Below, in pieces: positions 11,372 through 59,508 of a stretch of DNA of 64,000 nucleotides. Source of the stretch: Thuidium tamariscinum (Eukaryota > Streptophyta > Bryopsida > Hypnales > Thuidiaceae); assembly GCA_947034885.2 (NCBI GenBank), contig OX344751.2, positions 20,336,001 to 20,400,000 of the forward strand. The letters are read 5' to 3'. The position numbers were made by a program, and so were the translations under genes. Every line of letters starts with the position of its first letter. Position 1 is the stretch's first letter. A model generated the notes under the pieces. That model was given only the letters and a program-made list of their open reading frames with translations. It was not told the origin of the DNA and ran no database searches.

Positions 11372-12308
11372 TTAACCCCTAAAGGACTATCACGGTTTTG
11401 GCAATGGAGGTTTTCAATCAATTCTACCACTTTGATATTTTTTTGCATACAGATGTAATTAAATTTTTTAATTTTAACTATACAAAAGTAAAGATTACTA
11501 TATCTAATATGCATGGAATTAATTGTAAAAACTTTTAACCTTTAGATCTTTAGATTATAACAATTTTTAATGATCAACTTCATAGGCAAAAAATGCAATT
11601 TTTGGAGAAAAAAATTTATAAAAAGATGAATAAATATTTTTTAACCCCCTAGAAAAATTTATTTGGAGTCCAAAGGAAACATAGTATTTTTATATTAATA
11701 AAATTGAAAAACTCAAAAACTCCCTCAAATTTGTACACATTTGCAAACATGAAGACTAGAAAGTCAAATCTAAGCAAATTGGATCCTACAGAATTCTTAA
11801 AAATTTATACATGGATAAATTTTTGAAATTTAACAACTAATGTTATATTGTTATTATTATATTGTTTGGAACATCTCAAAAAAAATTGGAATCATTTTAA
11901 TTATTTTGTATTGTTAATTACACTTGATTGAACCTTTTATTTTTAAAATAGTTAAAAACAAAAAATTGAATTTTTTTTCAAATATTTTTTGTTTGTGTGG
12001 ATTATAGAATAGAAATGTGTAAGAAAATGGGGTTTTTTCCATCTCTACTACTCTTTTCATGAAAAAACATTATTTTTGCTCCTTTTTCCTACTAGACTAC
12101 ATTCTCGACTACATTTCCTAAATGAATTTTTAACTACTTCTCACATTCAAAATGAGAAAATTGGAAAATGAAAAAAGTATATAAACTTCTTTTTCAGATA
12201 CAAGATCTTAGTTTATAAAATATTGAGATTTGTTTCACCTTTCCGAGAAATTGCCATTGAAAAGTTTGAAGAGGACACATTGTGTCCTCTTAGTCCTTTA
12301 GGGGTTAA
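11372..12308. mobile_element. piggyBac-like non-autonomous element, copy 1 (937 bp with both TTAA)
   Basis: Bounded by TTAA (11372-11375) and TTAA (12305-12308). The terminal inverted repeat is CCCCTAAAGGACTA, exact on both ends. TTAA target duplication with CCC/GGG termini is the hallmark of the piggyBac superfamily. There is no transposase frame. The internal hairpin 'gaggacacattgtgtcctc' (12271-12289) next to the right end is peculiar to this copy. Confidence 0.7.
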
Positions 12309-12770
12309 GGTACAAACACTTCTTTTAGAACCTTCCATGAATTAGTTTTGTTACTTTGAAATGACCTTCACAAGAATGCACAATAATCAATTCTTACAAA
12401 TTTACACATGGCTCCTAGGGCAATTATGGGAGTGGTTACATGTTGTGCGGGTTGCTAAGTGGAATAGATTACATTACACAAATCCAAAGGAGTCCACTTT
12501 AGGATTTTTGAAAATTGGAACAAACTTTGTTGACTTGATAATGTAGAATTTTTGTATGAAATTTTAAGGTTGGATGTTAACCATCCTAATTTGTGTGTGA
12601 AGCTCCGTTTCTAATATATGTTGTAAAAATTAGGAAGAATTATTTAATTTTAGTATCCAATTAGATAGGTACATTCAAAAAGAAACATCAATTGGTCCTA
12701 TTTTCCATCTCAATGAGACTGACTCTCTTACTTGCTACCTTGGCATTTGAAATAACTTTTGAAGCATAAG
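12309..12770. other. Intergenic DNA
   Basis: A 61-codon plus frame (12361-12546) has no recognisable features. The last 80 bp belong to an older element into which the next transposon is inserted. Confidence 0.35.
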
Positions 12771-13520
12771 GGTCATGGCAAGAAACGGTGGTACTATTTT
12801 GCTGTCACAATTGGACATATTCTCTCATTGTCTGCAATCTAGTTTGCAATAACTTTTGAAGCACTAGTCGAATGAATATGAAATTTTTATTGAAGATGTC
12901 TAACTTTATTGTTATCACATCTCTTATTTTTTAGAAATTAAAAAATAATAATATTTAAAAACTATTTTTGTTTATTTGTCACAAATTGAGGTTTAGGGGT
13001 TTTCACTACGTTATGAGGCCCTAAATTTAAATATTTGGAGTTGAAACTTTCATGGTATACTTGCATAATAAAAAACTTGTATCCACCGAAGGAAATCTAA
13101 AAATACATTATTTTAAGTCCTTCACATGACTACAAACAAAACTTCTGTTGCGCGCAATTTTTGAACATTGAAGATGGTTCTTGGATCTTTTCTTTTGTTG
13201 AAATGTCATCAATATCAACTCTTCCTAAATGGAAAAATTTTAGTTTAAAAAAAAATTCATTTCTCTATTTTCTATAAATTAAAATGTAAAATTACAATGA
13301 CAAAACTACTTCCATGAGATTTTGCACTTTTCTAGTTCACCTACTTAGAAAAAATTTCTATACTTTTCCTTCTTAGGGTAACTTCTTTTTAAAGATATAT
13401 ATACAAAATTAATTTTTTACATTTAAAAAATAATAATTTTCTAATTTTAAAGTACTCCCAAAGAAACAGGAGTATTGTGAAAAACGCTACGCTTTTTGAA
13501 CACCGTTTCTTGCAATGACC
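12771..13520. mobile_element. TIR element of family F, copy 1 (750 bp)
   Basis: The 20-bp inverted ends read GGTCATGGCAAGAAACGGTG (left) and GGTCATTGCAAGAAACGGTG (right, reverse complement). ATAAG is found at both flanks (with one base offset), a possible 5-bp target duplication. The flanks join to give a sequence collinear with 12840-12930 and 56950-57030, showing insertion into an older relative. No coding capacity. Confidence 0.6.
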
Positions 13521-13674
13521 AATAAGTCCAATAAACTTGAAATTCCTATTGAATACATTTAATTTTATGGTTATAAGATTTTTTATTTTTAGAACTTATA
13601 AAAAATTATTTTACATTCAAGAATGATTACTTTTTTGGTTGTCACACAATTTGGTTAAGGGATTTAAGGTGAAT

Positions 13675-14840
13675 TTGATTGAAATGGCACAATTTTCATA
13701 AAAATGGTGGTCATTTTTCAACTTTGGCACTTTTGACGTTTAGACCATGCATTCTAATATCTTAAAATGTCCAAGATGTTTGAAATCTACACTAGTTCTA
13801 GATGTCTAAAATCTAAACCAATCCTAGATTCCTAAATGATTTAGACCACAATCTTAAATCTAAACTAGTCCTAGATGTTTGAAATCTATACCAATTTTAG
13901 ATGTCACTTCTTTAGCTAAGATGATTTTTTTCCAGATTTTTTGGGCTTTCTACTACCAAATTGAACCCCAAAACAAATTTGACTAAAAAGAAATGGCAAA
14001 AATTCATGAAGTTTTTCTCCAAAAACTTTTAATACAAAAAAATTCTAGGATGAAATTGCCAAATTGTAGATGAAAACAAAATTAAAGGCCATATTCAGTG
14101 TTAAATCTATGGGAGGACACTTCCCGTTTTTTAATAACCTATGTGCGGCGAAAGATAGGGTACATTTAAATAATCTTGGGTAAAATTTATAAGAAATTTA
14201 TATATAAAATAGGGGATATTAAAAAGGCAAAGTGTTTTAAAAATAAAATAGAGATGATAATATGGCTGATTTTTCCGCTTTATGGTAAAATAGGGGCTCT
14301 TTTAATGTTGCCAAGTAATGATTACAAGTAATTGATAGCCCCCCTAAAAATACCCCACCACCGCACGTGGGTCCCCCAAATACACAAGAAGTGTCCTCCC
14401 CGGGTGTTAAATTGAGACAAAATGGACATTTTGAGACCTTAGTCTAATTCTTTGAGACCTCTATTCTAACAAATAAAAAATCTATGAACATATCAACTTT
14501 TAGAAATTAAAGGCTTACAAATGTACTAACATATTCACAGTCTCAATTCTCTAAAAAATTTCAATATCAAATACTTCTTATCATCTAAATCTAAAGTCAA
14601 AGATAATATGAGACTACAAATTGTCTCATTTGAATGAATATGGCCTTATTATATACATGTAATATGTGATAATTAATGTAATATTTTCTATCCAATATGT
14701 GGATGAATATTGAAATTTGGAGCACCATTATAACATTTTATATCGCTACTTGGCACTTGGATATTAAAAAATAAAAATCCCTAATTTAGATTGCTTGGTT
14801 TAAAAAATGGCATATAGAATATGGCCATGATAATAAAACT
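13675..14840. mobile_element. Family G-like element carrying an inserted family H element
   Basis: Starts with 'ggtgaatttgattgaaatggc' and ends with 'atggccatgataataaaactcaccat', diverged versions of the ends at 789-1110. The interior has the same repeated 'aaatctaaactagtcctag' phrases. The 297-bp element at 14107-14403 is inserted in it. Confidence 0.45.
14107..14403. mobile_element. 297-bp TIR element with 9-bp target duplication (family H copy 2)
   Basis: Flanked by GTGTTAAAT on both sides (14098-14106, 14404-14412). The ends share GGGAGGACACTTC inverted. The body is nearly identical to 3263-3559, differing at only a handful of positions, so the two copies moved fairly recently or are of one young burst. 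Confidence 0.8.
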
Positions 14841-16149
14841 CACCATCTTTTTATTACTTTATAAGTCCCCAAATGTAATGATGTAGAAATAAAAAATTTA
14901 TGTTTATTTGCATAGTAGGAAAGTATATGTCTACTATTTGAAGGAAATCTAAAATACATTATTTTAGGTCCTTTATATGAATGCATACAATACTCCCATT
15001 GCATACAATTTTTGAATATTGAAGATGGTTCTAAGATCATTCTTATGGTGAAATCTCATTACCATTAATTCTTCCCAAATTTCCACTTTTTATCTATTCT
15101 TGAATTGCTTTTCCTATTTTCTACAAATTAAAATGTCAAAGTACTAATTTTCATGAGATTTTGCACTTTTCTAGTTTTCCTACTTTGAAAATTTTCCTAT
15201 ATTTTTCCTTCCTAGGGTAACTTCTTCTTAAAGGTTTACATATAAAACATATTTTTCACATTTTCACATTTTATTTTAATGGTTGGGTAGAAAAAAACAT
15301 ATGTTCTAAAAAATGATATATTTAATAATTTGATTGTATACATTCAAATCTATTTAAGAACATTTGAACCATTCAATTCCAAATAATAAGGTGAAAATTA
15401 TGAGGAATTTTATGTTATAGGCATTAAAGGTAGAAGAAACATTTGAATTTTTTTTCCACTCAATTTCAAAAATTCCAAATAAGAATATAAAGAAAGGATA
15501 CCAATAGTTTATAAGAAAATTCTCACTATTGTAATTAGCATTCTTTTTTAACCTTTTGTAAAATGTATTAGTGGTTAATTTCTTCTTCCATTTGGTACCA
15601 CCTTCAAGTTTATAATTTTTTTTAAATGAATATAAATGATTTTTGGTTAAAATTTTAAAAGTATATTGTCAATAAAATATTCAGCATATTGAATAAAATG
15701 CACAAGTTACTTGGCATCTGTATTTTTTTTCTAAAAATGTTGAAAGACAAAGCTTCACCTTTTGGAAGGGATAGAAAAGTCTATATTTTGAAATTTAGGC
15801 ACATTGAACTTTCAATGAGTTAGAACATTTACTTAAAAGTTTTGGAATGATGCAATTGAATTAAGTAACCAAAAAATTTTACAGTTGGATTTTAAGAAAG
15901 TGAATATTGATGAAGACTTTGGCTTTGATTATGGTACAAGTATTTTGAAAAAACTTTGTGCCTTTCTAAATATGAAAAAGCTAAAAGGATTTCTTTTTTA
16001 AATTATGAAAAATTAACAATTAAATCACATTCATAAGAATGCATGTTAGTGAAGGCAAAACCGGCATGTGTTTTTTTGGAAATCTCATCTCAATAGAGAT
16101 GATGCAAACTGTACAGTTCAACTTGTATAAGCACAATTCCATTTTTTGT
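14841..16149. other. Transposon-derived AT-rich DNA
   Basis: 14880-15250 resembles the family F interior at 13070-13400 ('gaagatggttctaagatc', 'cacttttctagttttcctac'). The rest holds no recognisable element or gene. Confidence 0.4.
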
Positions 16150-16659
16150 GTCCGCATTTTTCTATTCAAGATTTTGTGCATGGCTACCCATTGCAATCTT
16201 GACTTTCTTTAGTGTTGAAGGCTCTTGGAAATGAACCTCAAATACACAAGATCTTGGAAGAAAAATCACATTAGAAATTCATTCCAAAAAAAATTGTAGA
16301 GTAGATTTTGAAAAGCCATAAATTGATTGGGGTTATGCATGTTAGGCCCTTTCATTTCATATTTTTTTAGTCACCAACTTCTTAGATTTGACTTGTGAAA
16401 AAGAGGATTGAAAGACTTCACATCACTTTTGCAATTTTAACACCCTCATGATCAAACATTATAATTTGTCAATCCATAATTAATTAGTAATATTGTCGTA
16501 TTTTCTTTGTCAAAATGATTTTTAACATCATGTCTAGTTTGAATTTGTATGGTTCAATTTCAAAAAACATTGCTAATGCTCATTATAGAGTTGGCTTTTT
16601 GTTCACTTCTAAGCAAATTCCTAGAAGCTGAAAAAAGGCCTTGGACATTTAGAGGTTAA
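16150..16659. mobile_element. Partial piggyBac-like element (right end), uninterrupted
   Basis: Ends in TTTAGAGGTTAA (TTAA 16656-16659), preceded by 'gaaaaaaggccttgg' as in the copy ending at 25489. 16155-16660 is collinear with 38930-39110 plus 39995-40292; there an 880-bp segment is inserted, so this is the empty-site version. Confidence 0.55.
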
Positions 16660-16982: not shown

Positions 16983-18060
16983 ACCTATGGAAGTCTGTAC
17001 ATAACGTACACCTCGATTTCATAAGATCCACAGAAAGCTAGTCTGCAGTCGATTCAAGGCCCCAAACACTCTCGAGATGGAAGACTGTTTGGTTCTCTCC
17101 GTCTTCCCACAGCCGCAGAGATTCCAAAGCTGTCGTGCTGGAAGAGCCATCCTCAATTGAAAGTTTGAAAGTGAGCTCGGCGTACTTCCGTCGGAGGTTA
17201 GAGTCGACCTCGAATTCTGTAGCGTCGTACTTCGATCGCCCTCCCCACCCTTAGGATATGTTCCCACTTGCTGTTAGTGAAATTTTAGGTGCATTTACAG
17301 GGAGCAGGGATGGGACAGAATGTCCCTATTGAGCCTCTTTCGGGGGCAGGGATGGGATGCGGGCAAATCAAGGGGCTGCTCCTCACACTTCTGAGGACCC
17401 ATCAATCTACTTCCAATTTCTGTTTAAATTTGATTTTTCCAACAAAGTAGATGAGAATGCTATAGAACACAAGATTTTCAAGAAGAAAATTGAAGTATGA
17501 TGTGGGTTTTGTGCCACATGTTCACTTAAGCCTCACAACCAATCTTGGATTGGAGTGGGAGAGAAGAGAAACTCTTTATACTAGTGGAGTAGTGGTGGGT
17601 GAAACAAACCATGTGGGATATGTGATTTAGGAGAAAAAAGAGCTCCTCCATTCATGGTTGTGGAAATGGAGGAATTGTGATAAAAGTCAAATTTCAGACC
17701 TCATTTAAAAATAGTGGATTGTATTTTTTCAAAAAACTTCAAACTAAGAAAAGTTGGGGAATCAAGTGAAAATTTTACCACCAAAAATCCGTTTGAGATT
17801 TCAATACTCCACCTAAAAGTTATGGACAAATTTCAGAGGAAGTGTTCAAAAATGTCCCCAAAATGTCCTTTCCACACACACACCTCTAGAATTTGTCTAG
17901 AACTCTTACGTGAGGCTTCAAAATCTCAAGTGGATTTTTAGAGATAAATGTTACCTTGTTTCTCACACTTCTTTTAGTTCTATTTTTTTTTAAAGAAGCT
18001 ATAATGCAGTGCCCAAATGAAGTCTAAAATTCAACTTCAAGCGCAGTTCTTGTATTTCTA
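16983..18060 (+). repeat. Left arm of a 1,078-bp near-perfect inverted repeat
   Basis: Base i pairs with base 37986-i of the right arm (19926-21003) over the full length without an indel. I noticed only one mismatch, close to the inner edge (18052). The arm contains part of a captured exon (16983-17267) followed by the sequence of a transposon-like element (about 17263-18060). Confidence 0.85.
17041..17241 (-). pseudogene. Captured exon, left copy
   Basis: Exact inverted copy of 20745-20945; see that entry for the reading frame. Confidence 0.5.
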
Positions 18061-19496
18061 GTTACATCTCAAATTTTTAAGAACTTTAAATCAATATTTC
18101 ACCATTATTGAAACAACATGACAAACACAAAGTAGACACTTAAGGTTGTCTAAGCAATGTCACAAGCTATATTGAATCAATGTTGTGAATCAAAGGTATT
18201 GTGTCAATAATTTGAATATGGTGATGTAGGAATGTTGAATCAACAATTATTCAAAGGTATTGTTTCACATTTTCAATATGGTGGTGTAGAATATTGGATC
18301 AACAATTGTTGAGGGTTGAATTCTTAAAAATCATCTTCTACAAGGATTTCTCAAGACTTATAAAAAAAAGTGATCACCTCATTATGTGTTTGAAAGGGCT
18401 TGTTCAATTTTAATGGATTCATACTCTCAAGTTGAAATGTTGAAATGTTAATTCAACAATGTTGTCAAATTTTAATTCTTTTGAAGTTAAGTTGTTCTCA
18501 AAATTGTAACAAAGAGCACTTTGGGGTTTTAATGAGGGAATAATACCTTTTTATAATTCATACCTTTCAATTGATGTTGATAGTGTACATCAAAACAACA
18601 TTCAAATTTTAGAAATGTTGGTGAATATCAAACGCCAATTGTTCACCCCTTATGTATTGCAAGCACTTGATGATAGATTGATGATGATAAAAGGAACTTG
18701 TCAATATCCAAAATTCCAATTACTTGAGAATGCAAAAAGAAACTATTTCCTCTCTCAAGCTAATTAGATTGGATTTGAATATTGTATTGTGATGCAAGTA
18801 TAGATTTATTTATTTATTGGATTTGTATGAGGAGGGTATTGTACATACGATAACCCTTTTTGTTTAGTAGGACGTTAAAGCATGTCGGAGCTCTTATCAC
18901 ATAGAAGGTATCTTACAAAAAATGGAACTTCTTATGAGAAGGTATGAAATATGTATTAATTTCAAATTTTATTGTCTATTGATGATATGATGTTAAAACA
19001 ATTTAACTTTTGTTATACATTTAACCATTAGGTAAACATGGTAAAATGTTCCATTGTTGTTTCAAATAACATTAGACTAATTTTTAGTTGTGGTAACATC
19101 TTTGAAAAAGTGCACTAATGCACCAAATGTTGAAACAACAATGAAATAAGGGTGAAGCAAAATTTGAGGTGTAACCATGAATGGCTTCATTTTCTATAAA
19201 CAAAATTGAGAAGCGTTGAATATGGTACAATGTTAGTGGTGCAGTATTATCAATGTAGACCACATCTACATGTGCTATTAATAATATGTAACATTGTACA
19301 ACTTTTTTGACATTCTTACTTTGTTTGATGTTCAAATTTATGTTTAGAAAATATTCATATCAAGCTTTTAATATCTTTCATGATTAGTATTTGTCAAATC
19401 AATTAAAAAACACATGACTTTCAAGTACTTGAAAAGTACAATTTTTATTTCATTACTTGAATCAAAGTTTGTTATGATTGACAAAACTTATGCATT

Positions 19497-19533
<37 letters not shown>

Positions 19534-19925
19534 CAATGAAGAGTTGAAAATAAAAACATCACTACTTAGATTCTCATAAAGTAACTATGTGTATATATGA
19601 TTGAATATGCAATTACACATTGTTTGTATAAAGAAACTACCAAACTCTTCTAGGATTTTAGTGGAAGTCAGTAGAATACTCTAAAATCTCCAAAATGCAT
19701 CTTTTTTACACATGAATCAGTTATGAATTTTCACAATACTAAAAAATTAGTGTTCCTATAACAATATCGTACAAATTAGACATAAATTTGTAAAGACTAT
19801 CACCTTAAGAAAAGGATCACAATTGGATTCACTTACTCAAATAGAAAATTCTACACCCCTAAGATTGTACAACACTCAACACTTTTCAATTTTGTTCATA
19901 AAAAATGAAGTTGCTAATGGTTAAG
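18061..19925. other. 1,865-bp spacer between the inverted arms
   Basis: AT-rich with no gene. A diverged tandem duplication of about 85 bp lies at 18195-18310 (two units beginning 'aaggtattgt', ending 'atcaacaatt'). 19498-19534 is an (AC)n(AT)n microsatellite. 19650-19925 is shared with 39150-39375, continuous there with right-arm sequence. Confidence 0.5.
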
Positions 19926-24561: not shown

Positions 24562-25489
24562 GTAACCCCTAAAGGACCATTGTCCCCTCGGGGGACAATT
24601 TGGAGTTTGGGCAGGTTCCGTAGACCTCAATTTTTAATGAATCTTTTTGAAACTTTCTCATAAGATAGGAAAACTGATTAGCTTCATGGGAATGTAATTT
24701 TTATTTCAATTGGTGACCGGGAGCAAAAGTTATACCACAAAAAGCCCAAATTTTCATTTGGCGGGCACAAATTTTTTTTTGCAAAAAGTCAAAAATTTAA
24801 AATTTTTTTTTTTTCTAAAATAATATATTTTTGCCTACATGTGAAGCTTTGATTCACTCTATTTGGACTTATAATGAGAAAGTTATGGACAATCTTGTTT
24901 TTCGGGCAATCTAAACAATTTCTTGAAAAAATAACTTATAGGATTCATTTTTGAATGCAATTTTTACAATTTTTCAAAAAAAATTGTAAGACAAGGTTAT
25001 GTTTACTTTCTAGAACAATCTCACCATTGGGATTATTGTATTTCAATCCCATCTTAGAGTTATTAACCATTTAGTTTTTCTTTCAATCTTGAACCTACAT
25101 CTATTCAACAATTTTTTAAAGAATGAAAATCAAGTGTTTTTTGTGTGAAATTTTTTTCCTAGACTCTCAACTCAATTTCTTAACACAAAAAATTATAAAT
25201 TCAAAGTCTATAGTGCAATTTTTTAATACAAATTCCAGTCAAAGTCATCTGAAATTGCAAACCACAGTTCAAAAAAACTTGTATTTTCAACTTTGAATGC
25301 TCATATCTTCCAATCTGTACGGTCAAACTTCATGAAATTTTTACCACTTGATCTTAATCAAGTTAAGTACAAGATCCTACGGTTAGATTCTTAAAAAAAA
25401 TATTTTTTGTTTTCTTGGATGAATGCAACAGAAATGGCAGTTTTGAGAGGTTTTTGACAGAAAAAAGGCCTTGGTCCTTTAGGGGTTAA
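24562..25489. mobile_element. piggyBac-like non-autonomous element, copy 2 (928 bp)
   Basis: Left end GTAACCCCTAAAGGACCA (TTAA mutated to GTAA), right end TGGTCCTTTAGGGGTTAA; the TIR of 14 bases is exact. The flanks continue collinearly with the reverse strand of 56700-56860, where a single TTAA (56780-56783) marks the unoccupied target. No transposase frame. Confidence 0.7.
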
Positions 25490-32253: not shown

Positions 32254-33204
32254 TTAACCCCTAAAGCCCTGAACAATGTTTTTTGAGATTATAAATTTTT
32301 TGGGCAACTCACTATGGATGGAGATTTTATTTTATTTCTTTGAAATTTTGATACAATGTGTGCCCGAGGAGTAGCTTTAAGGCCCAACAATTTTCATAAC
32401 TTTTGACTTCATGGTTAAAAAGTTATGGCAGGATATGTTGTTTTCTTTACTCGGCGGGCAGCCCGGGCAGCTGAAAAAACTTCTTCAAAAAAACTTTTTT
32501 TTAAAAAGTGAAATTTCAAATTGGTTCTTTAGGTTTATACAGACATGGGAAGATTTGAATCAATCCATTCCGATCAATGAGTCAAAAGTTATGAAGACTT
32601 TGAGTTTGGGGTAGTTTGCGGCCAATTACAGAATCTCTACAGTCCAAAAAAAGTTTGAAAATCTTCATTTAATTCAATTTTTCATATTTTTGGAAAAAAA
32701 TAAAAACAGAAGGTATAGATTGTTTATTACAACATTTTAACCATTGGGATTGAAAATTTTCAATTCCATGAATAAAAAGTTCACAATTTAGTATTTTGGC
32801 TCATTTTTTACTTCTTTCTACTTACTTATTTTTCCTTATATGTTGTACAATTCCAAATGGTTTGAAATGTTTCGAGAATGTAGCCAACTTGCATTGAAGT
32901 ATGAATTCAAAGAGTAACCACCATTTTGAATTTTTTTTCACACAAATGTGACCTTGTGAAGTGCAGCTGCCCGGATTTTCGCAGGGATAAAAAAACAATT
33001 TTTGTCAATTCAAATGCTTAAATCTTGCAATCTACACGGTGGAAATTTCTGAAATTTTTTTCACATGCTTACAAACCACCTTATTACCAGATCCTACGGT
33101 TACATGAGTCAAAATTGTGTTTAAAAAAAAATTGCACTTGTATTAGAAATGGCAGTTTTGGAGCATTTTTGGTGAAAACATAGTCAAAAACCTTTAGGGG
33201 TTAA
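32254..33204. mobile_element. piggyBac-like non-autonomous element, copy 3 (951 bp)
   Basis: Flanked by TTAA (32254-32257, 33201-33204); ends CCCCTAAAG and CTTTAGGGG. The interior is of a different subfamily from copies 1 and 2 and closest to copies 4 and 5 ('gaaatggcagttttggagca', 'atcctacggttacatgag'). Confidence 0.7.
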
Positions 33205-33859: not shown

Positions 33860-34449
33860 AATTTTGACTATGGTTAAAAAATTTCAGAAATTTTCACCAG
33901 GTAAATTGCAAGATCTTAATTAGCATTTGAATTGACAAAAATCTTTTGGGGGGCCTTGCAAAAAACAAGATGGAACTTGTACTTTACTAGATTGCATTTG
34001 TATGAAAAAATGTTCAAAATAGTAGTGCTTCTTTGAATTCATTATTTAAAGCAAGCTTGCTAGATGCTTGAAAATTTTCAAATAATTTGAAATTGTGCAA
34101 CATATAGGGAAAAAAAAGTAAGGTAGAAAGAAATAGAAAATGACTCAAAATACAATTTTTTTTAAGAATTTCTTCAAACGGAATTAAAAAATACCAATCC
34201 CAATGGTGGCAATGTTGTAATAAACATTGCACATCCAATGTTTTTACTTGTTTTCAAAAATACTGAAAATTGAGTTAATTAAAAGGACTTCAAAGTTTCT
34301 TTTATAAGAAAAACCCCATAAAAGCCTGCAAACTAAAATCCCTCATAAATGCTGACTCAATAATCACAATGGATTGATTCAAAGCTTTCAATGTATATAC
34401 AAATCTAGAGGACCAATTTCAAATTTTTATTTCTTCAAAAATTGAATTT
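33860..34449 (+). mobile_element. piggyBac-like element, left part, split by a CACTA insertion
   Basis: Aligns with 58600-59290 (copy 5) and continues after the CACTA element at 37045-37250. The left terminus is lost. Confidence 0.55.
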
Positions 34450-35488
34450 TTTCACTAGAAGAAAATTGCATTTGCCACAACCGACTGAAACGCAACTATG
34501 TATCCTACGCAACTTTTTTGCAATTACAACCCTCTATATTTGCACTAAATTTAATGTTTACACCATTGTAATCGCAAATTAGTTGTAGATTGAAGTTTCA
34601 AGATGCATGTAGTTACAAAGTAGTTGCAGGTTGAAGTTTTGGGTTACAAGAATGTAACAAAATTTTTTTTGTGAGGTATTCTACATCCAAGATTCATCAC
34701 ACTTGTTAACATGGATTACTTTAGGTTTTGTAGAATTTAGTGTGTCAAACTACAGTTGCATATAATCTAAATTTGACTATAATTCAATTAGAATGCAATT
34801 AGAATGTAAGTAGAATGCAACTAGTTTGCAACTAGAATGCACTAGAATGAAACTAAAATGCAACTAAAAAATGTTTGAAATTCAACTAGAAAGAAACTAC
34901 AGTTCAAAAAAAATCACTAAACTTTAACTAGAGAACTACTAACATGTGATTAGAAAAAGACTATAATGCAACTAGAAGACGACTAAAATGCAATTAGAAA
35001 ACGACTAGAATACAACTAGAAAACAATTAGATCAAGTTTTATATCAATTGTCCCATGTCAATTGTCAAGAGTACTATTAAATTGGACGGATAAGAACCCT
35101 AACTTATAGCATCTTTAATTAATGAAGTTTAATATTACAATTGTAATATTTCTAAACTTTGTGGATTCCTCCAGCAGTACAGCTTGTAGATTTGGATGAA
35201 TGCAAGTAATATTTGTACTATTTTCCGTCACAATTTAACTGTTGATATTTTTTTGGCCATAACTTTTGTGTTTAAGCTCCAAATGACTTAAAGTTTATAG
35301 AAAAGGTATTCATGACTATTATACACTTCCCCTAATTTTTTCATAATTTTCAAAAGTAGTTTAATATTAAAATAGTACTAGTAATTCAATGTCACAAATG
35401 ATAATTTGGAGGTTTTTAGTACTATGGAGTGCCTTTTTTGAAAAGTTACATAATGAAATTTTGCAGAGTGCTTCCTGCTATAGACATA

Positions 35489-37044: not shown

Positions 37045-37250
37045 TGAGATGCTTGGGCTAGGAAAGAAACTTCATATTATACAATAATTTTTAAACCATT
37101 TAGTCAAAAATTATAAAAATTGTTGTGTCTTAAAGCTACTCCTTGACCACATGTTGTGTAAAAATTCAAAGAAAAAAGATGAGAAATCTACTCATAGTGA
37201 GCTACTCAAAAAATCTATGTTTCCAAAAAACATGCCTTAAGAGTTAAGAC
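37045..37250 (+). mobile_element. piggyBac-like element, right part after the CACTA insertion
   Basis: Continues the alignment with copy 5 (59300-59430: 'ttatacaataa', 'cacaaaaattgttg', 'ttaaagctactcctt'). The right end is degenerate ('cttgaggggctag'). Confidence 0.5.
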
Positions 37251-38929: not shown

Positions 38930-40292
38930 TATTCAAGATTTTGTGCAAAGGTGTCCATTGCACTCTTGACTTTCCATATTCTTGAAGGCTCCTGAAAATG
39001 AGCCTCAAACACATTAGATCTTAGGGAAACAATCACATTTGAAATTCATTTCAAGAAATTGTAGAACAGATTTTGAGAAGCCACAAATTGATTGAGGTCG
39101 AATTGCACTTGCCATTAGTAGATTACTCTAATTAGTAGATTACTCTAAAATCTCCAAAAATGCATTTTTTTTACACAACATATGAATAAATTATGAATTT
39201 TTACAATGCTAAGAAATTAGTGTTCCTACAACAATATTGTACAAATTAGATAGGAATTTGTAAAGACTATCACCTTAAGAAAAGGATCACAATTGGGTTC
39301 ACTTACTCAAATAGAAAATTCTACACCTTTAAGATTGTACAATTTTCAACACTTTTCAATTTTATTCATAAAAAATGAATGTGTGTGTGTGTGTGTGAGT
39401 GAGAAGGACGTTTTTGGGGTACATTTTCAAACACTTCCCCTAAAATTTGGAACATAACTTTTCGTTGGAATATTGAAATCTCAAATGGATTTTTGGAGGT
39501 AAAATTTTACTTAATTCCCCAACTTTTCTTAGTTTGAAGTTTTTTGAAAAATATAGTCTACTATGTCTAAATGAGGTCTCAAATTTGACTTTCATCACAA
39601 TTCTTGCATTTCCGCAACCATGAATGGAAGGGCTCTTTTTTCTCCTAAATCACACATTCCACATGGTCTGTTTCACCCACCACTACTCCACTAGTATAAA
39701 GAGTTTCTCTCCTCTCCCATCTCAATACAAATTTGGTTATGAGGCTCAAGTCAATGTGGCACAAAATCCACATCATTGCTTCAATTTCCTTATTGGAAAT
39801 CTTGTGCTATAGCTTTGAAAAAATCAAATTTAAATCAAAATCAGAAGTAGATTGATGGGTCCTCAAAAGGATCCCTTGAATCCTTGATTGCCGAAGATTG
39901 CCCAATAGGTACATTCTGTCTAACCACACCCCATGTAAATGCACCTAAATTTTTACTAACAACAAATGCGATTTGACCCTTGGAGTCAAGCATGTCACGC
40001 TCTTTAATCTCATATGTGACCAACTTTCTAGATTTCACATGTGAAGAGAGGATCAAAAGATTTCAAGTCACTTTTGGTGTTTCAAATCCATCATGTTCAA
40101 ACATTAAAATCATTCAATCCATAAGTGATATTGTTTGTTTGCTTTTTCCAAGTGTTCCCTACCATGACTAGTTTGAATTTGTAGGGTTATATTTTTTAAA
40201 ATTAATAAAGCATATCAAAATGTTGTTGTTTTTGTTCAATTGAAAGCAAATTCGTAGTAATTCAAAAAAGATCTTGGGCATTTAGGGGTTAA
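38930..40292. mobile_element. piggyBac-like right part with an ~880-bp insertion
   Basis: 38930-39110 and 39995-40292 are collinear with 16155-16660. Ends CATTTAGGGGTTAA (TTAA 40289-40292). The inserted piece (about 39111-39994) matches 19650-20723. Confidence 0.55.
39111..39994 (+). mobile_element. Inserted transposon-like segment, single diverged copy
   Basis: Diverged copy of 19650-20723 without the inverted arm. The ends are CACTTGCCATTAGTA and TACTAACAACAAATG (reverse complement CATTTGTTGTTAGTA), 11 of 15 matching. Target duplication unclear. A (GT)n run at 39379-39397 marks the point where the older copy has GTGTGTGTGTGG. Confidence 0.5.
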
Positions 40293-43554: not shown

Positions 43555-44631
<1,077 letters not shown>

Positions 44632-46547
44632 AATAGTTCTGTATTATGAATGGTTTCATCTAAATTTCAAAACATAAATTCTAATTCTTCATACATTTTA
44701 TGTCATTTTCATTTTGAAGAATACAATGACAATGATGACAATATGTTTACTTGACCACTACATGGTTAATACAATACATGGATGAAATTAATCCCTAAAT
44801 GTTACCAAAGCCAAAAAATATTCATTTAGTCAATGAACAATTCAACAATAAATGCACTTCCTAGTAACTACATGGTTTTCAGTCAAGTTCTTTTAGGCTT
44901 CTTTGAGAAAGTGCACAATAAATGCTAGTGAAAATTTCTAATTGAGGCAGTATTAATGCTTTTATACAAGAATTTTTGTTAAATTAAATTACCAGAGATG
45001 GTTTCTTAGTATTCTTTGATACCTCCTAGATTATTGTTTTGAATCTCAAATTTAGCTTTAAAAATGATCTTTTCTAGAATTTACATCCAACTAATGAAAT
45101 GAATCTTACCAAATCTAATTTGTATTCCAATTTGAATTTTAAAGACTTCATAAAATTCAATATTTTATTGCAATGTGAAGTTTATGAATATATTTGTAAT
45201 ATATTAGTTTACTAATTGTAGAATGACATGGAAATCTAGTTAACTTATAGAAGTTCTATACTATAATGCATATCTATGGCAAACATTTTAGAAAGTGGTA
45301 TCCTACACTTATTTTCAAGGTAACTAAGTTCTACATGTATGGAAACAAGTCTTGTAATATTTGGACCAAAAATGAGTGAGGAAATGGTCTTGCAATAGTA
45401 ATTGCTTTATTAGAAAATTTGAGAAAATTTGAGATACACAAATGATTTGTCACAAACTTGGAGCCTGAATTAAAGACCAAGTATGGTTTAGTAAGAGAAC
45501 ACACAAAAATGCACAAAATAGAAAAAACAAACAAAAAAAGTGCATGTTTATTAGGCCAAAATTCTTGCTTTCTTATTCCAAATGTCCTACATTTGAATGC
45601 ACTTGGAAGTTTTTCCTTGTCCACACCTTCTATTCAAGTTTTGGTTGAAAACATAGAAATCTTTAGAAAGTTCATGTAACTACCTCATATTGCTATTTAG
45701 CCAAATTCAATAAGTTAGTCCTTTAGTAGTTAAATTGTAAACCTCTTTTCTACCTTTCCTTAAAGGTCAACAATTCTCTTGAAAACAAAAGTATATTGAA
45801 TGGGATGCCATTTTCTTTGTCCTCAACTACCTTTAACCACACTATGAGTTTTAGCAAAAATCAAGCATTCCATCTAGTAATAAACTTCAAACTAACTATA
45901 CTATTTGAATATAGCCAATAAATAACATTACTCCAAATTGCCATTTTTATGTTTCAACAAGATGTAACCTTTACAAGCTTGGCTTATAATGTTTAAAGAC
46001 ATTTATGAACATGATTTCCATATATTGTTTGGTCATGTATAAATAATAATCAAAAGAACTATATTGATTTTATTTTGAGGTCTAGTCAAATCTTTACTAT
46101 TCAAAAATCTATCATATTCAATTATACATGCACTAAAACTTGGACCACCATCTACTTCCAAGTTGTGTTGCAATAATCAAAATAATATATGATGTCTATA
46201 TACAAACTCTTAGACAATAGACATACACATGAAAATCCCAACAAGGCTTTTAATTTGAAGAAGGGCAAGTAAAATAAGCTAGAATTTGAATTTGTACACC
46301 ATATAATGATTCAATTCTCCTCTTCTTCCAATGACATATCTTTCCAAAGTTCTAACAACACAATTTCATCATAAACTTCACCGTATGCTCTTCACATCAA
46401 AAAAATGAAACTTGAAGTACTAATATTTCCATGATATTTTCAAGACTATGCCAAATTCATTTTGACATTACAATGTGTAGAGCACTTTAAAATATTTATA
46501 GTTTGTACAAATCTAGGAATAAAAATTTCAAAATCCTCCTCTAAATT
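44632..46547. other. AT-rich intergenic DNA
   Basis: Opposed frames at 45331-45624 and 45458-45679 overlap and are not convincing. No element recognised. Confidence 0.4.
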
Positions 46548-48070: not shown

Positions 48071-48078
48071 CTCTTCGC

Positions 48079-49626: not shown

Positions 49627-50110
49627 TTAACTCCTAAAGTCTCATTGTCCACTCATGAAACATAATGGATTTTGAAGTGAATCCTATAGTTTCTATTTTC
49701 ATTGTGACTTTTTAAGCTTTCTTTGAAGATACAACAATACAATAGCTTTTGGGGAACATAATTTCTATATCAATCAATGCCTAGAAGCAAAAGTTATGCC
49801 ACCCACAATTTACATTTTACAATATCAAAGCATTAACTTTTCTTAACTTTTCTAATACTTAAGAGGGAACCCACTTTTGATTACATAGGTTGTAAGATAT
49901 CAATCATATTAATAGTTTGGGGCATTCAAAAGTCATTTTTAGAATTATTTTATGATGAGAGAATTTTTTTCAAATAGAAAAGAGTAATCTAACCTTTAGG
50001 TTCTATCATAAAAAATGATTAGACTTTTTTTATTTTTTTATTTATCTTTTAGGATAGTCCTTTCAATAATGTTAATCATGAGACTTCATTATTACATTAT
50101 TCATTAATTG
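49627..50110. mobile_element. Partial piggyBac-like element (left end)
   Basis: TTAACTCCTAAAGTCTCATT opens it; the next 180 bp resemble copy 2 ('gcaaaagttatgccac'). The right end is not found before the next transposon. Confidence 0.45.
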
Positions 50111-50117: not shown

Positions 50118-51152
50118 AGGGTGATTACAAGAAACACTTGTTGATTTTGTTGCATTTTCATGATATTTTTAGGAATACTTTGAAATTAGAAAAATAGTTT
50201 AAGAAAATTTATTTTTAAAATGACCAATGTATACACCTATAAGACAAAGGTAACCACCAAAGGAGATGAATAGAAAATTTCTCAAAGTAGTAGAACTAGA
50301 AAAATGTCAAATCTCAAGAAAATATATACTTTGATGTTTTAATTAGGAAAAAATATAAAAAATAAAATAAAATATTTCCTTTTGAAAAAACTTCATAGAG
50401 ATGGCCATTCAAAATGATTGCAAGAAAAACCTCACATTTTTGGCTCAAAAACATTATTTTTGGACATAATTAGTACTGGCAGTATTACGGAATCCTGATA
50501 GTACAGTGTGTCTGACATGCGCCTACAAATTTCCACCATCAATTTCAAGCACCTACACATCTAGATCGTCAATGTAATACTATGCAATACTATAGACTAC
50601 TACAATGTACTTCACAAGCTACAGGGAGCAAAAAATAGTAGAAAAAGGATTTGTGAACCTTTTATTTTTTATAATTAAAAAAAATAAAAAAAATAATTAA
50701 AAAAAATCCATTTTTCTAAACAAAATTATGCTCACATTGCAACAAAGAAATTTCTAGATTTTTTTCCCCTCTTTGTAGCATTTGTGTACATAAAGGTCAC
50801 TTTGACCCCATGTGGACAATAAACATTTTACTATTTTTATAAAAACTCACTATCAATCCTTGAAATAGTAGTAGAACTCCAACTTGTCCAATTTGTGGCT
50901 TCAAATTCGGATTTTTTAGTCAAAAATAGGATTAAAATTCCCCCAAATGGCCAAGGTAGACAACCAATTGGAGGCAATTTAAAAATAGTAAACTAATTTT
51001 GAAAAAATTAGAAAAATTACACAACATATAAAACTTTTGTGTGCACCTTCATTCAAGTTGATAGGGCAAAATATGCAAAAGTTATGAGCAAAAAACTACC
51101 TAGTAGAGGTCAAGGGGACAGAAAAAGGACAAGTGTTTCTTGCAATCACCCT
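50118..51152. mobile_element. Family F element, copy 2 (1,035 bp)
   Basis: Inverted ends AGGGTGATTACAAGAAACAC and AGGGTGATTGCAAGAAACAC. No coding capacity. The interior shares 'tctagttctactactttgag'-type sequence with other copies. Confidence 0.6.
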
Positions 51153-51959
51153 TCATCAAAAAACTCAACAAAATCATTTTTCACATGTTTCAAAATGCAA
51201 GCAGAAAGAGGCTCACTTTGTAGACTTTTACACCAAATAAAAATAAGTGTATTAAAAAATTCCTAAAGTTAGCCATTAGCTACAAGTCTACTGAAAGACC
51301 ATCTCTCCTAAATTTCAACTCCAAATTCCTTTTTTTGGATGCTAAATAGTACTAAATTCTTCCAAATTGGCAAATGTGACATTGAATTGGGGTCTATTTT
51401 TGGATAGTGAACTATTTTTAAAATTAGGAAAGAAGAATGCAAAGTGTATAATAGTGATGGGTACCATCTCTACAAATCTTGAATCAATTAAAGCCAAAAT
51501 ACAAAAGTTATGGCCAAAAAACAGATCAACAAACATGGTGTGATGCAAAATAGCATCATTATCAAATAATTAACTTTTTAAATTTTAGTAGAAGTCAAAT
51601 TACAAAGAATGTTAGGTACTGGGCATTTCAAGGAAAATGAAGCCAACAAGATGTTTATTCAAAGATGGAAAATTTATTCAAAATAATGGCTTGGCTTATT
51701 CCATATATATGGAAAATTTCATTAAAATGGCCATATTCCATGTGCCATTTTTTAGACCAAGTAGTCTGAACTAAAAGCTAATATTTAGGACAGGTATAGA
51801 TTTTTAAATGTCTAAGACGCATACAGATTTCAAGAATCGTAACTTATTTAGATTTAAGACCATGCAATCTATAACATCTTGGACAAATTTAGATTTCAAA
51901 CATCTATGATATATATAGAATTAAAAAATCTATGACAAATTTAGATTTCAGACTGCAAT
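51153..51959. other. Transposon-derived AT-rich DNA
   Basis: 51700-51960 resembles family G ('aaaatttcattaaaatggcc', repeated 'tagatttcaga' phrases). 51300-51540 resembles 52440-52640. No gene. Confidence 0.4.
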
Positions 51960-52693
51960 GGATGAATGCAAGAAACACTTGTACTATTTGTTGCATTTTA
52001 CTACAATACTCATGACCTTTTTTGGAGTACTTTAAAATTTGAAAATTAATTTGAAAAATATTTGAAAAATATGAATAATGAATACACCTCTAAGATGAAG
52101 GTTTTCACTGAAGGAAATTGATAGAAAAATTCTCTAAGTAGGAGAACTTAAAAAGCGCCAAACCTCAAGAAAATGCATACTTTCACATTTTAATTTGGGA
52201 AAAATAGTAAAAATAAGTATGTACAAAAAATAAAAAGTGTCCATGTGCAACAATTCTATGGAGATGGTCATTTACCAAAAAACCCACCAAAATAATATTT
52301 TATATGTTTCAAAATTCAAGCAGAAAGAAGCTCACTTTGTAGACTTCCACACCACACAAAAATAATTTTTTTCAAAATTCCTCACGTGGAGAGATGTAAA
52401 TCTACTAGAAGACCATCTCATCCAAATTTCATCTCAAAATCATTATAAAAAGGTACTCCTTAGTACTAAAAACCTCCAAATTGTCATTTGTGACATTTAA
52501 TCACTAGTACTATTTTAGTATTAAACTATTTTTGAAAATTATGAAAAAATTATGTAAGGTATATGATAGTCATGAATACCTTATTTAGAAATCTTGAGTC
52601 ATTTAGAGGAAAAATGCAAAAGTTATGACCAAAAAACAGATCAGCACTTAGGTTGTGACAGAAAATAGTACAAGTGTTTCTTGCATTCACTCC
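51960..52693. mobile_element. Family F element, copy 3 (734 bp)
   Basis: Ends GGATGAATGCAAGAAACACT and GGAGTGAATGCAAGAAACAC (reverse complement), AAT on both sides. The right part matches the left part of the copy at 35194. Confidence 0.6.
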
Positions 52694-54346: not shown

Positions 54347-54606
54347 GGAGTTGATGTTCTTGGTAGAACTTCCCAAACAGACTCACTTTTCAAGTTGGCC
54401 CGAGTCAGAGCTAGTTTTCTTCTACCTCCTTCCAACTTAACAATTACTAATATACTCACATTTATGACTTGGATAATTCTACGAGTACATTGTCAGATGG
54501 ACATTCAATTTCTTAACAATATCTTGTTAAAAAAAACAATCATTTACATGGTCTACAAAATTTTGATCAACTTCGTTTGCGGTGATCGATTTTACAGAGT
54601 GCTCTC

Positions 54607-55920
54607 ATGTTCGTCATAATCACGACCCACGTTCAGTGGTCTACCTCGGAGCGTAACAAGAACATCACTGTTGATTCTATTGGTCCATGGGACAAGGCTC
54701 GTTTAAAAGTACAACGCCGGTGTGTGGATTTCCATTGGGAGAATCGATCAACGTATTTTTACTATTGGCCTGAAGACGACCCGGACGCCCACTTCGACCA
54801 CTGTTGCGCGATGGATCCAGGGTTGCACAATCTTACACAATATACGTATGGCAAATACGGACCACCGTTGATTCTAAGGTTCTATTATGACCTTGGTCTG
54901 ATCGACCAGTGCTTGCCATATTGGAAATGCAATTACCTCTTTCAAACCTACTTTCATACCAACCTGTACAAGGCATCTTGTGAAATAACGGATCTACGGA
55001 ATCTGTACAAACGGAGGTTCGTGGTTCGCACTGTGCTTGAACACGGTCTTCTTGAATCTGCGATCCCTCTCATCCTGTCCTTGGAGATTCTTGTTATCTT
55101 TTTCGTCGCGCTGTACTGGTGCATATGGCGACGACCTGTTAATGGATCAAGGCCGATTGTGAAAGACGCCAGTGGAGCTTGGTTTCGACATATTCGCAAA
55201 ACACTCCTCATAGACTGGGCGCATTTGTGCCTTCTGGCAATAGTAGGCAATGGTCTAGTGGAGGCGGTGGCACGCCAAGCTGCTTACAGTTCTCAATCCA
55301 AATCGTTTTACAATTATGCCCGGCTGTACGTAGTGCTTTCGATTCTGGTTTGGTATTCCTCAGTTCTGCAGCAGGTCGCTTACGCCATAGCTGAGATGGA
55401 CATGTATTTTGAGCCAGCAGCTCAGGAAGCAAACGGAAATAATCAAGCCACTACAGAGCCAAATACAGCTCCTAGTGCGACGTTACCACCACGAAGTTTA
55501 CCTCGCCATCCATCAGTGATATCGGAATTGGAGACGACACTGGGCCTGAATGACGACTGGAAATGGCAACCCATTGCCGCACAAGCAGGGATTTTGTTTT
55601 GTCTTTGGGGTTTCCTGACGTATAGTAGCACTTCAGAAGATGAGTCGGCCGTTGGAGCAGTGTTTGGAATCATTGTGAGTGCGGCCTGTCCGTGGAGTGG
55701 TTTGTATGCTTCGAAAGTCATAGTTCACGCATTTCCATGGGTACTGAGAAGGGTGTACCAAAACCTCTTCAAGCGGCGACGAAATTACCGCGGGCTGTGG
55801 CGCTCCGTGCTGCATCTGCAACAGTGGCCAGGCTGTGGCTATGGAGCACGACATGGTGTTGCTCGACCGGAGGATTCAGCCGCATTTGTGGAGCTTGTGG
55901 AGAATGACAACGCAGTTTAG
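54607..55920 (+). CDS. Intact member B of the five-segment membrane protein family
   Basis: Encodes 437 residues in one exon and starts at the ATG aligned with that of gene A (MFVIITTHVQW...). Six cysteines (C39, C66, C67, C102, C108, C125) and the YYWPEDDP motif (53-60) match gene A. Sequons include N46 (NRS) and N75 (NLT). Probable membrane segments: about 148-173, 200-222, 239-261, 322-340 and 349-372. The loop before the fourth segment (268-303) is different in sequence and longer by about 10 residues than in gene A, while LGLNDDWKWQPIAAQAG and CPWSGLYASKVIV are conserved. The tail is basic (RRR-NYRGLWRS, ARHGVARPEDSAAFVEL). Divergence is uneven: outer domain and loop vary, core is constant. 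That fits a functional membrane protein whose exposed parts evolve fast; the role is unknown. Confidence 0.82.
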   Translation: MFVIITTHVQWSTSERNKNITVDSIGPWDKARLKVQRRCVDFHWENRSTYFYYWPEDDPDAHFDHCCAMDPGLHNLTQYTYGKYGPPLILRFYYDLGLIDQCLPYWKCNYLFQTYFHTNLYKASCEITDLRNLYKRRFVVRTVLEHGLLESAIPLILSLEILVIFFVALYWCIWRRPVNGSRPIVKDASGAWFRHIRKTLLIDWAHLCLLAIVGNGLVEAVARQAAYSSQSKSFYNYARLYVVLSILVWYSSVLQQVAYAIAEMDMYFEPAAQEANGNNQATTEPNTAPSATLPPRSLPRHPSVISELETTLGLNDDWKWQPIAAQAGILFCLWGFLTYSSTSEDESAVGAVFGIIVSAACPWSGLYASKVIVHAFPWVLRRVYQNLFKRRRNYRGLWRSVLHLQQWPGCGYGARHGVARPEDSAAFVELVENDNAV

Positions 55921-56254: not shown

Positions 56255-56526
56255 GGTAGGTACACCCAAAAGCGCCAGTTTTTCATACTGTGCCTAGTTT
56301 CTGTTATTATGTTGTTCAGATTTTTTTACAGTCTTGTTGGTGAGTGAAAGCATGTTCCAACACACCAAAGAACAGTGGATTTGGATACCGTATGCAAAAG
56401 TTATTAACAGTCAAAGTGTGTTTTTGAAAGCTCCATCTACAGTCTGGGTACATGACTGATTTTGAAAATGTATGCACGTTGTACAGGGTGCTTTAAGGTC
56501 AGGTGCCATTTTGGGTGTACCTACCT
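56255..56526. mobile_element. 272-bp TA-flanked MITE (family J copy 3)
   Basis: Ends AGGTAGGTACACCCAAAA (left) and AGGTAGGTACACCCAAAA (right, reverse complement), flanked by TA (56253-56254, 56527-56528). Inserted within repeat N, as is copy 1, but at a different place. Confidence 0.75.
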
Positions 56527-56528
56527 TA

Positions 56529-57097
56529 TAGTGTAAAAAAAAATGCTCATTGTAAGGGTAACCCTGGAATATCTACAGGTCCAACATGTGACTTTTGAAT
56601 GATTTTTAATGCAAACAACTGCATAAAAGATTGCAATTTTGATGCACATTATTTTGTTTTGTAGTTGCTTGAAAGTGCAAACATCACTAATTATCCTCCT
56701 TGTTGTTTTGATATTGTTTCAATGTTAAAAAAATTGTTCAACTGAATTAGTATTGTTCTAATGTTGTTTTGTTATTTTATTAAGTAAACATCATTTCAAT
56801 AAGTTATTGCAACAATGAATACTTTAAATACTTTGATGATTTTGAGCTAATTAATTGTTTCAACTTTCACAACGGCATTAGGGTGATTGCAAGGAAGACT
56901 TGTACTATTTTGGGTCACATTTGGAATGACGGAGTTCCCATTTGCTATGACTTTTGAAGCATGAACTCAATTAATTTGAAATTTTTATTAGAGATGTCAA
57001 TTTAATAGCAATCAAATCCCTTATTTTCCAGAAACTCTCAAAAAACATTTTATATTTAAATTAAAATTTGGCTAACTTGAATGTTACACTTTGCAGT
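56529..57097. other. Repeat remnants
   Basis: 56540-56610 is the rest of repeat N. 56690-56870 is the reverse of 24400-24560 plus 25495-25570 and contains the empty site of piggyBac-like copy 2. 56887 onwards starts with a family F end (AGGGTGATTGCAAGGAAGAC). Confidence 0.5.
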
Positions 57098-58029
57098 TTA
57101 ATCCCTAAAAGACTAACTTGCTAAATTTGGCAACATATTAATTTTGGACAAGTGCATAATTATAATGAGATATTTTCATATTCTAAGTTCAAATTTTAAT
57201 AGAAGGTGGGGACAAGAAATGTCTTTCATGTGTACTAAAAATAACGACATTTTGAAATATGAGTCAAAACACAAAAGTTATGCCCTAAAATGCTACTTTT
57301 TTTTAAATGAGTAGTTCTAGCAAATTGAAAAAAATCAAATTTTCTGAAAACAAAAATTTTTAATTGATTTTATTCATTTATATATACATGGAAAGCTTTG
57401 AATCATTCTATTTTGATCAATGAATCAAAAATTATGAGGCATTTTTATTTGTGGGCAACTATAGATTTTTTACTCTAAAATTAAATTTAAAGTCCTTTAT
57501 TTTATTCAATTTTCAATATTTTTTGAAAAAAATTAAATGTTAGGATATGGATTGTCTAATACAATACTGGGATTTGCATTTTTCAATTCTACAATTAAAT
57601 TCTTAAGAACTTTGTATTTTGAATCATTTGCTACTTCTTATAATTCATCCTATGTATATGTTATACAATTCTAAACAATTTGAAATTTTTTAGGCAAGTA
57701 ACCTACTAGTCTTCAACAATGAATCCAATGAGGCACAATCATTTTAGACCATTTTTCATATGATTTTTGCCTTCTAAAGTTTAGCTTCTATGTTTTCTGT
57801 AGGATGAAAAAAAATGATTTTTTAGCATTTAAACACAAATATCTTGCCATCTACATGGTAAAGAACTTTGAATTTTTTTGCACATATTCTCAAACCAATT
57901 TACTATAAGATCCTATGGTTGTAAATCTCAAAACTAAATGTTTTAAATAAAAAATTGGTATTGGAACTAGAAATGGCACTTCTTGACCATTTTTGGAATA
58001 AACATAGTCAAGGAACCTTAAAGGGTTAA
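57098..58029. mobile_element. piggyBac-like non-autonomous element, copy 4 (932 bp)
   Basis: Flanked by TTAA (57098-57101, 58026-58029). Ends TCCCTAAAAG and CTTAAAGGG, more worn than in the other copies. The interior aligns with copies 3 and 5. Inserted into a family F-type element. Confidence 0.6.
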
Positions 58030-58174
58030 GGATTTTTTGTACTAGGAAGTATCCAAAATTAATGACATAAAATTGTTGTAGTCTATTCCTACACTAGATG
58101 GGCATGTGCCAACCAAGGGAACTTTTAAAATATTATTTTATATTCTCTACATCAATGTCAATAAGGCCAACAAT

Positions 58175-58375
58175 ACTAGTGTATGAGTATGAACATGCGA
58201 GCATCTGAGCTTCTAATATGTATATAAGTAGATATACTAGGTGTTTATAGTAAAAATACTTATAATATAGGTACTTATAGTATAAATATATACTCTTATC
58301 ATAAAAGGTTTTTATAGTATAAACACCTATACTATAGGTGCATCATCTTTGAGGCTCATAAGCTCACATACTAGC
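58175..58375. mobile_element. Palindromic MITE, family L copy 2
   Basis: Matches 30059-30282 throughout, with a 20-bp deletion. Ends 'actagtgtatgagtatg' and 'gctagtatgtgagct' (reverse complement). Confidence 0.6.
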
Positions 58376-58389
58376 AACCACGTTAACAA

Positions 58390-58581
58390 GGCCCCATTGT
58401 ACACATTTGTGAACATTATAGATGGTTTCAAGATAATATTTTTTGTGGAAGTTCATTGTGATGAAGTCCTCCCAAGTTGCCAATTTCTAATTTCTTCATA
58501 AATTATCTTTTGTATTTTTCAAAAATGGAAATGCCAAAGTACCTATTTTCTTGACATTCTATACTTTTCTAGTTCTCCTAC
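58390..58581. mobile_element. Family F-type interior, split by piggyBac-like copy 5
   Basis: Continues after the insertion at 59509-59640; the joined sequence is collinear with 13150-13480, where 'cctacttagaaaa' marks the unoccupied site. Confidence 0.5.
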
Positions 58582-59508
58582 TTAACCCCTAAAGTTTTTT
58601 GACTATGTTTTCACCAAAATTGTTCCAAAATTGTCATTTCTAGGACAACTACCAAAATTTAGAAAAAACATTTTTGGAATGATGTAACCGTAGGATCTTT
58701 TAGGTAACTAGTTTGAAAAGATGTAGAAAGTTTTTTTAGGAAATTTCACTATGTAGATTGCAAGATAGTAGTGTTTGAAGTTACAAAAATCCTTTTTTTA
58801 CGATTGCAAAATTCCGAGCAGCTACACTTCAGAAGGCCATATTTGTATGAAAAAATGTTCAAAATGGTTGTTACTCTTTGGAATCATTCTTCAATTGAAG
58901 TTGGATACATGCTTGAAAATTTTCAAATCATTTGGAATTGTACAACATGTACAAAAAAATAGTAAATAGAAAGAAATAGAGAATGATTCAAAATACTAAA
59001 TTGTTAATAATTTATTTATTGAATTGAAAAATGCCAATCCCAATGGTTCAAATATTCTAATAAACAATCTACACCCACTATTTTTTTGTTTTTTCAAAAA
59101 TATTGAAAATTGAGTAAAATAAAGGACTTCAAAGTTTATTTAGAATGGAGAATCCATAACTACTTGCAAACTAAAATTCTTCATAACTTTTGACTCATTA
59201 ACCCAAATGAAATTGTTCAAAGATTTTTACATATATATAAATCTATAAAATCAATTTCAAATTTTGGTTTCTAAAAAAGTGATTTTTCTTATTTGCCCAA
59301 ACTGCCCAAGTTGAAAAACAAACAACATATTATACAATAACTTTTCAACCATGTATTCAAAAGTCACAAAAATTGTTGGGCTTAAAGATACTCCTCATCT
59401 ACACCTTCTATTAAATTTTGGTTCCCAAACATGAAATTCTCTAGTCATACATACCTATCCAAAATCGCTATGTTGCCAAAAAAGGCATGTTGGTCCTTTA
59501 GGGGTTAA
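58582..59508. mobile_element. piggyBac-like non-autonomous element, copy 5 (927 bp)
   Basis: Flanked by TTAA (58582-58585, 59505-59508). Ends CCCCTAAAG and CTTTAGGGG. In reverse orientation relative to copies 3 and 4. The frames at 58771-58969 are chance. Confidence 0.7.

Follow-up and report, generated by a model that had tools for sequence, protein, structure and literature searches.

Short non-autonomous elements of the piggyBac superfamily and their coding relatives in a land-plant genome, most likely that of a moss

The closest described systems are the piggyBac element of Trichoplusia ni (structure 6x67) and the piggyBat element of Myotis (9c0f). The stretch analysed here, a window of 64,000 nt (C3:20336001-20400000) from an assembly of 363.2 Mb in 19 contigs, carries short repeats which are, with high confidence, non-autonomous piggyBac-superfamily elements; the host is a land plant, most likely a moss. 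Short and coding elements in this genome (loci outside the window are numbered L005-L072, contigs C1-C10) are like piggyBac and piggyBat in the TTAA target, the CCC ends and a DDE_Tnp_1_7 domain with aligned aspartates. They differ in the host, in the longer open frames (1087, 1023 and up to 1214 aa, against PDB chains of 578 and 594 residues) and in elements of 5.0-5.6 kb, some with a palindrome that lies 15 nt inward of the terminal TTAA. Compared with the plant miniature inverted-repeat transposable elements (MITEs) Tourist and Stowaway, the short elements are similarly short, AT-rich, non-coding and present in many copies, but the target is TTAA rather than TWA or TA, and termini and transposase are different. 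Regarding piggyBac-type MITEs of animals (Daphnia mPok, PMC4912750; coral, PMC2872659), these are apparently likewise non-autonomous piggyBac-type passengers, whereas the present elements have a plant host and a length of about 930 bp that is uniform across unrelated interiors.

The superfamily is a known one, and earlier work already places it in plants. A 2015 survey names PiggyBac for every group studied, land plants included (PMC4438587), a table in a fern paper gives 1230 PiggyBac fragments with a total of 122 kb (PMC6890710), and an abstract refers to piggyBac isolated from plants (PMC10813416). A review of land-plant transposable elements (TEs) has six cut-and-paste superfamilies and the word piggyBac 0 times (PMC9033089). 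The scarcity of piggyBac in land plants, as assumed in an earlier note on this DNA, is a fair description but, given the survey and the fern table, does not hold absolutely. No report of a coding, recently mobile piggyBac in a moss was found among the papers listed in the literature searched, which covered few subscription journals; in a moss-genome paper that contains the letters twice (PMC10619864), one of the two places reads 'piggybacking'.

Five complete elements lie in the window (lengths count both TTAA): E1 at 11372..12308 (+), a non-autonomous element of 937 bp with an exact TTAACCCCTAAAGGAC at each end; E2 at 24562..25489 (+, 928 bp), which has a 96% identical counterpart in L015; E3 at 32254..33204 (+, 951 bp); E4 at 57098..58029 (+, 932 bp), with the ends TTAATCCC and GGGTTAA; and E5 at 58582..59508 (-, 927 bp), opposite in orientation to E3 and E4. 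Starts and lengths (927-951 bp) are those given in the earlier note. The shared TTAA flanks and common ends which it also described are general, with termini starting CCC and finishing GGG, but not without exception: the left TTAA of E2 reads GTAA, the left end of E4 is TCCC, unlike the CCC start elsewhere, and the exact 12-mer CCCCTAAAGGAC is present at both ends in E1 and E2 only. When TTAACCCCTAAAGGAC was searched with up to three mismatches, the window gave 14 matches; shuffled versions gave 0.66 on average and 5 at most (0/100 shuffles at 14). The genome-wide search which had been proposed for the shared ends found the exact 16-mer 5916 times in the 363-Mb genome (3022 forward, 2894 reverse; reversed control 0).

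A scan with CCCCTAAAGG at up to one mismatch, in which TTAA was not required, gave ten matches; TTAA precedes nine of them and GTAA the tenth (the left end of E2), and TTAA is therefore not an artefact of the search. For the recognition of empty sites, the flanks of 14 elements were joined via one TTAA and compared with the available DNA, and seven junctions were read by base; the joined flanks of the other seven matched only at their own places, among the matches listed. For E1 and E3, no spanning paralogue match was obtained in the DNA compared. TTAA had been claimed as the target-site duplication, and this was borne out for three insertions by uninterrupted paralogues with a single TTAA. 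An empty site of the L011 element is present at 50265..50370 (+, 81% identity), and two more, also uninterrupted and with a single TTAA each, at 52121-52219 (79%) and 15109-15200 (78%). The empty site of E2 at 56703..56842 (-, 79%) has a single TTAA with a 6-nt gap adjoining it and is otherwise uninterrupted. L070 contains nested insertions: a TTAA of an E1-type element is occupied by an element of about 745 bp, and a TTAA of the latter by a 932-bp element (96% identical to an element in L017); the nesting site is uninterrupted in L071, L072 and E1, and reads TTAA in the first two and TTGA in E1. A longer duplication outside TTAA, named beforehand as the result that would speak against piggyBac, did not appear. 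The three empty sites of the L011 element belong, with ~51150-52670, to one AT-rich repeat family, the landing ground of that element; the repeat copies at about 51-52.6 kb share with the elements a AAAAGTTATG-like motif, seen by eye.

A DDE_Tnp_1_7 profile search of the genome gave 659 first-look candidates; all of the 116 that were scored exceeded the Pfam cut-off (best 5.7e-80), and none of 14 named control genomes yielded a match (0/14). By hand count, 74 of the 116 scored rows have no stop within the match, and 11 rows share an open frame length of 1023 aa. L040 has an intact frame of 1087 aa (PF13843 at 7.1e-80), to which two other loci match at 99%. Compared with PDB, the 1087-aa transposase matched piggyBat 9c0f at 1.6e-32 and piggyBac 6x67 at 7e-25 with three aspartate blocks aligned; the VDE, TDR and GVD blocks, the aspartates of which are taken to be the catalytic residues, align with the 6x67 chain, and the protein has a tail rich in CxxC, a possible counterpart of the C-terminal cysteine-rich finger of the superfamily. 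L036 and L037, each 5096 bp from TTAA to TTAA, are 99.98% identical in different flanks, which is strong evidence for recent movement. The six transposase elements examined measure 4954-5615 bp, and TTAACCCCTAAACGCC and TTAACCCTTAAATGACC are examples of their ends; a stop lies inside the transposase match of L039 and of L041. Among 20 further transposases (from 50 rows), a correctly oriented GGGTTAA end was located 1.0-1.6 kb past the coding match in 19/20 (two ends in L064, none in L067), and an oppositely oriented TTAACCC in 1/20. The larger DDE_Tnp_1_7-coding relative that had been predicted is thus represented by TTAA-bounded elements of 5.0-5.6 kb with CCC ends and conserved aspartates, and no autonomous partner from another superfamily appeared. 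Its ends were expected to be the same as those of the short elements; the match is close, but no coding element was found in which both are exactly CCCCTAAAGGAC, the nearest having CCCCTAAATGACC or CCCCTTGAGGACTA on one end. L055 ends with TTAACCCCTAAATGACC, identical at 12/13 positions to the CCCCTAAAGGACC of the passengers, and L065 with TTAACCCCTTGAGGACTA.

The link between E1 and the piggyBac elements goes beyond a short terminus, because E1 has the same TTAACCCC, 11-nt spacer and palindrome. In the L065/L068 element, the upstream end consists of TTAACCCC, 11 nt and GAGGACACAATGTGTCCTC; in E1 the identical 19-nt palindrome is found at 12271..12289, reads GAGGACACAATGTGTCCTC on the minus strand, and has the same distance from TTAA as in the transposase-bearing L068. 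E1 and the L068 end are 87% identical over the terminal 38 nt, with no match beyond. The L055/L069 element has the same end arrangement with one base changed in the palindrome. Genome-wide, TTAACCCC + 11 nt + GAGGACANNATGTGTCCTC was found at 62 places, all of 38 nt though a spacer of 6-18 was allowed (reversed control 0). They include E1, the upstream ends of transposase elements at C3:25042873 and C3:39569850 and, by position, the end at C3:6459020 of a third palindrome-sharing transposase element (match at C3:6454840-6457560).

The short elements are read as non-autonomous piggyBac elements on account of the TTAA targets, the CCC ends, the coding piggyBac partners and the end structure shared by E1. 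A piggyBac transposase from the coding copies would bind the terminal CCCCTAAAGGAC together with subterminal sequence of the short elements, excise them and reinsert them at a new TTAA, and non-coding passengers could in this way have reached thousands of genomic ends.

Several results weigh against this interpretation. E2-E5 are tied to the coding elements by terminus and target only. No coding element was found to carry CCCCTAAAGGAC at both ends, the closest one-sided ends differing at 1/13 or 2/14 positions, and a blastn comparison of 15 short elements with the six transposase elements gave no match, so that the former did not arise from those six by simple deletion. All three loci with E1-type ends (L070-L072, of 27 places) hold passengers and no coding element. 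Two of the three palindrome-sharing transposase elements (L068 and C3:6454840) have stops inside the transposase match. The empty-site comparisons of three further elements were undecided at 68-79% identity: the one paralogue of E4 reads TTTAGG, a full TTAA is present in 0/4 for E5, and TTAA in 0/2 for L008. For E1 and E3, no spanning paralogue match was obtained in the DNA compared.

Since no coding element exact at both ends was found, movement by another TTAA-targeting superfamily, with the piggyBac elements coincidental, is also conceivable. Kolobok and Sola3 are such superfamilies; the TTAA target alone is not specific to piggyBac, and no search aimed at Kolobok or Sola3 transposases was made. 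Such an origin is nevertheless very unlikely in view of the CCC termini, of the transposase-element end identical at 12/13 positions to CCCCTAAAGGACC, and of the combination of TTAACCCC, 11 nt and palindrome common to E1 and transposase-bearing piggyBac elements.

The assignment to a land plant is well supported. The chlorophyll a/b-binding family has 49 matches in the genome; regarding one of these proteins, the best solved relatives are 9vfj, then 8htu and 7xqp, where 9vfj has the higher score but, as a chain of 620 residues, may gain by repeats. 8htu and 7xqp are structures from the moss Physcomitrium, which is weak evidence for a moss host. The contig sizes, with three large ones and then a drop, are moss-like, and the host is most likely a moss, perhaps a pleurocarpous one. 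Contamination, or an origin of the sequence outside plants, is highly improbable: C3 carries the window as well as DDE and chlorophyll a/b-binding (LHC) matches, C1 carries both kinds of match, and the contigs are of chromosome scale (C1-C10: 54.2, 47.9, 47.4, 32.5, 30.6, 29.1, 28.8, 25.7, 24.9 and 24.3 Mb). Moreover, L071 carries, 2.1 kb from an E1-type element, a plant-type class III peroxidase gene (PF00141 at 1.3e-75), for which royal palm peroxidase is the best solved relative.

Size and AT-richness would also fit Tourist/PIF-Harbinger or Stowaway/Tc1-mariner MITEs with a 3-bp TAA/TTA or 2-bp TA duplication within a conserved TTAA, but this can practically be dismissed, since the partners found are piggyBac, the outer T, which a TA duplication would leave free, is kept at 9/10 unbiased ends, and TTAA is symmetric on both sides, whereas Tourist needs a triplet in one direction. 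Regarding retroelements as a source of the window repeats, a regex scan of the window, a crude test, found 0 reverse-transcriptase motifs.

With the piggyBac assignment of the short elements retained, their interiors fall into at least two groups, in agreement with the two or more subfamilies that had been proposed. E2, E3, E4 and E5 are mutually 55-75% identical (z 12.7 and 13.4 in the two pairs tested; z from 60 first-order Markov shuffles each). E1 showed no clear internal similarity to E2, E3 and E5, with z 1.1-2.3 in the same and 1.2-2.2 in the opposite orientation, and forms a separate family. The relatives of the E1 interior are the elements in L072 (84%) and L071 (82%), and another in L070; these E1-type passengers are 920 bp in L072 and 905 bp in L071, and the L070 copy is broken by nested passengers. 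Among the places listed (C1 up to 6.41 Mb; positions taken by hand), there are 19 convergent TTAACCCCTAAAGGAC pairs less than 2 kb apart, of which 17 span 915-934 bp and the others 704 and 1171 bp. The length of about 930 bp common to internally unrelated families may be an accident of two founders or may matter for movement. As a tentative idea given less than even chances, the host would be a moss with an extensive, recent piggyBac radiation (at least 116 scored transposase matches, near-identical coding copies), which would support passenger families that were assembled independently and held at about 930 bp, with the uniform length and the fixed-distance palindrome selected by the transposase of this lineage.

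Shorter elements of 704-749 bp with the same ends are found in L005, in L008 and in the middle of L070 (456-2130); their halves match in both orientations, which makes each of these elements a long inverted repeat, and they are akin to one half of the E3 family. The end TTAACCCCAAAGTGACCCTGAGGACAGAATGTGTCCTC, of which 21 identical copies were counted by hand genome-wide, resembles in its terminus the transposase elements of L057, L059, L061 and L062, and probably marks an additional young passenger family.

Beyond the five elements, a strongly diverged element of 946 bp at 44788..45733 (-) is by its sequence a probable sixth (E6), with z values of 3.7 and 5.1 against two of the others; about 1 kb of ATTT array (43556-44630, about 269 copies) lies directly before it. 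Fragments of the E3/E5 family are located at 33876..34454 (-) and 37060..37235 (-), and a weak fragment of the E5 family at 1312..1471 (-). The left end of an E2-type element occupies 2468..2595 (+), and a fragment of another is present at 49692..49804 (+) with a TTAACTCCTAAAG end at 49627. E6 and these five fragments (1312, 2468, 33876, 37060, 49692) were not in the earlier note. Lone element ends are found at 40277..40292 (-, two mismatches) and 16644..16659 (-, three mismatches). With E6 and the isolated ends excluded, recognisable copies including fragments account for 5831 of the 64000 bases (9.1%).

Regarding the remainder of the window, 187 open reading frames (ORFs) of at least 60 aa were present, and the 13 distinct ones submitted to Pfam gave nothing convincing; an Rfam search of the window gave no match. 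Three related GC-rich open frames at 8678-10102 (-), 48070-48708 (+) and 54586-55920 (+), of 474, 212 and 444 aa when measured between stops, appear to the eye to be membrane proteins, and two open frames at 46551-46970 and 47620-48114 (-), of 140 and 165 aa, look like remains of DNA transposon proteins; none of the five has a Pfam match. A perfect inverted repeat of 1082 nt (16983-18064 / 19922-21003, 1857 nt between the arms) has arms that are 100% complementary and is therefore either of very recent origin or homogenised by conversion. A hairpin-like inverted repeat at 63172-63908 has arms of 356 nt, 89% complementary, with 25 nt between them.

The finding is of note because piggyBac is missing from one account of land-plant TEs, though it is listed in a survey and in a fern paper. 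With piggyBac elements that are intact and recently duplicated, and with thousands of passenger ends, such a plant genome makes the distribution of the superfamily in mosses, horizontal transfer and silencing by the plant testable. Native plant transposases might also be of interest to users of insect piggyBac for scarless excision in plants (PMC10905368).

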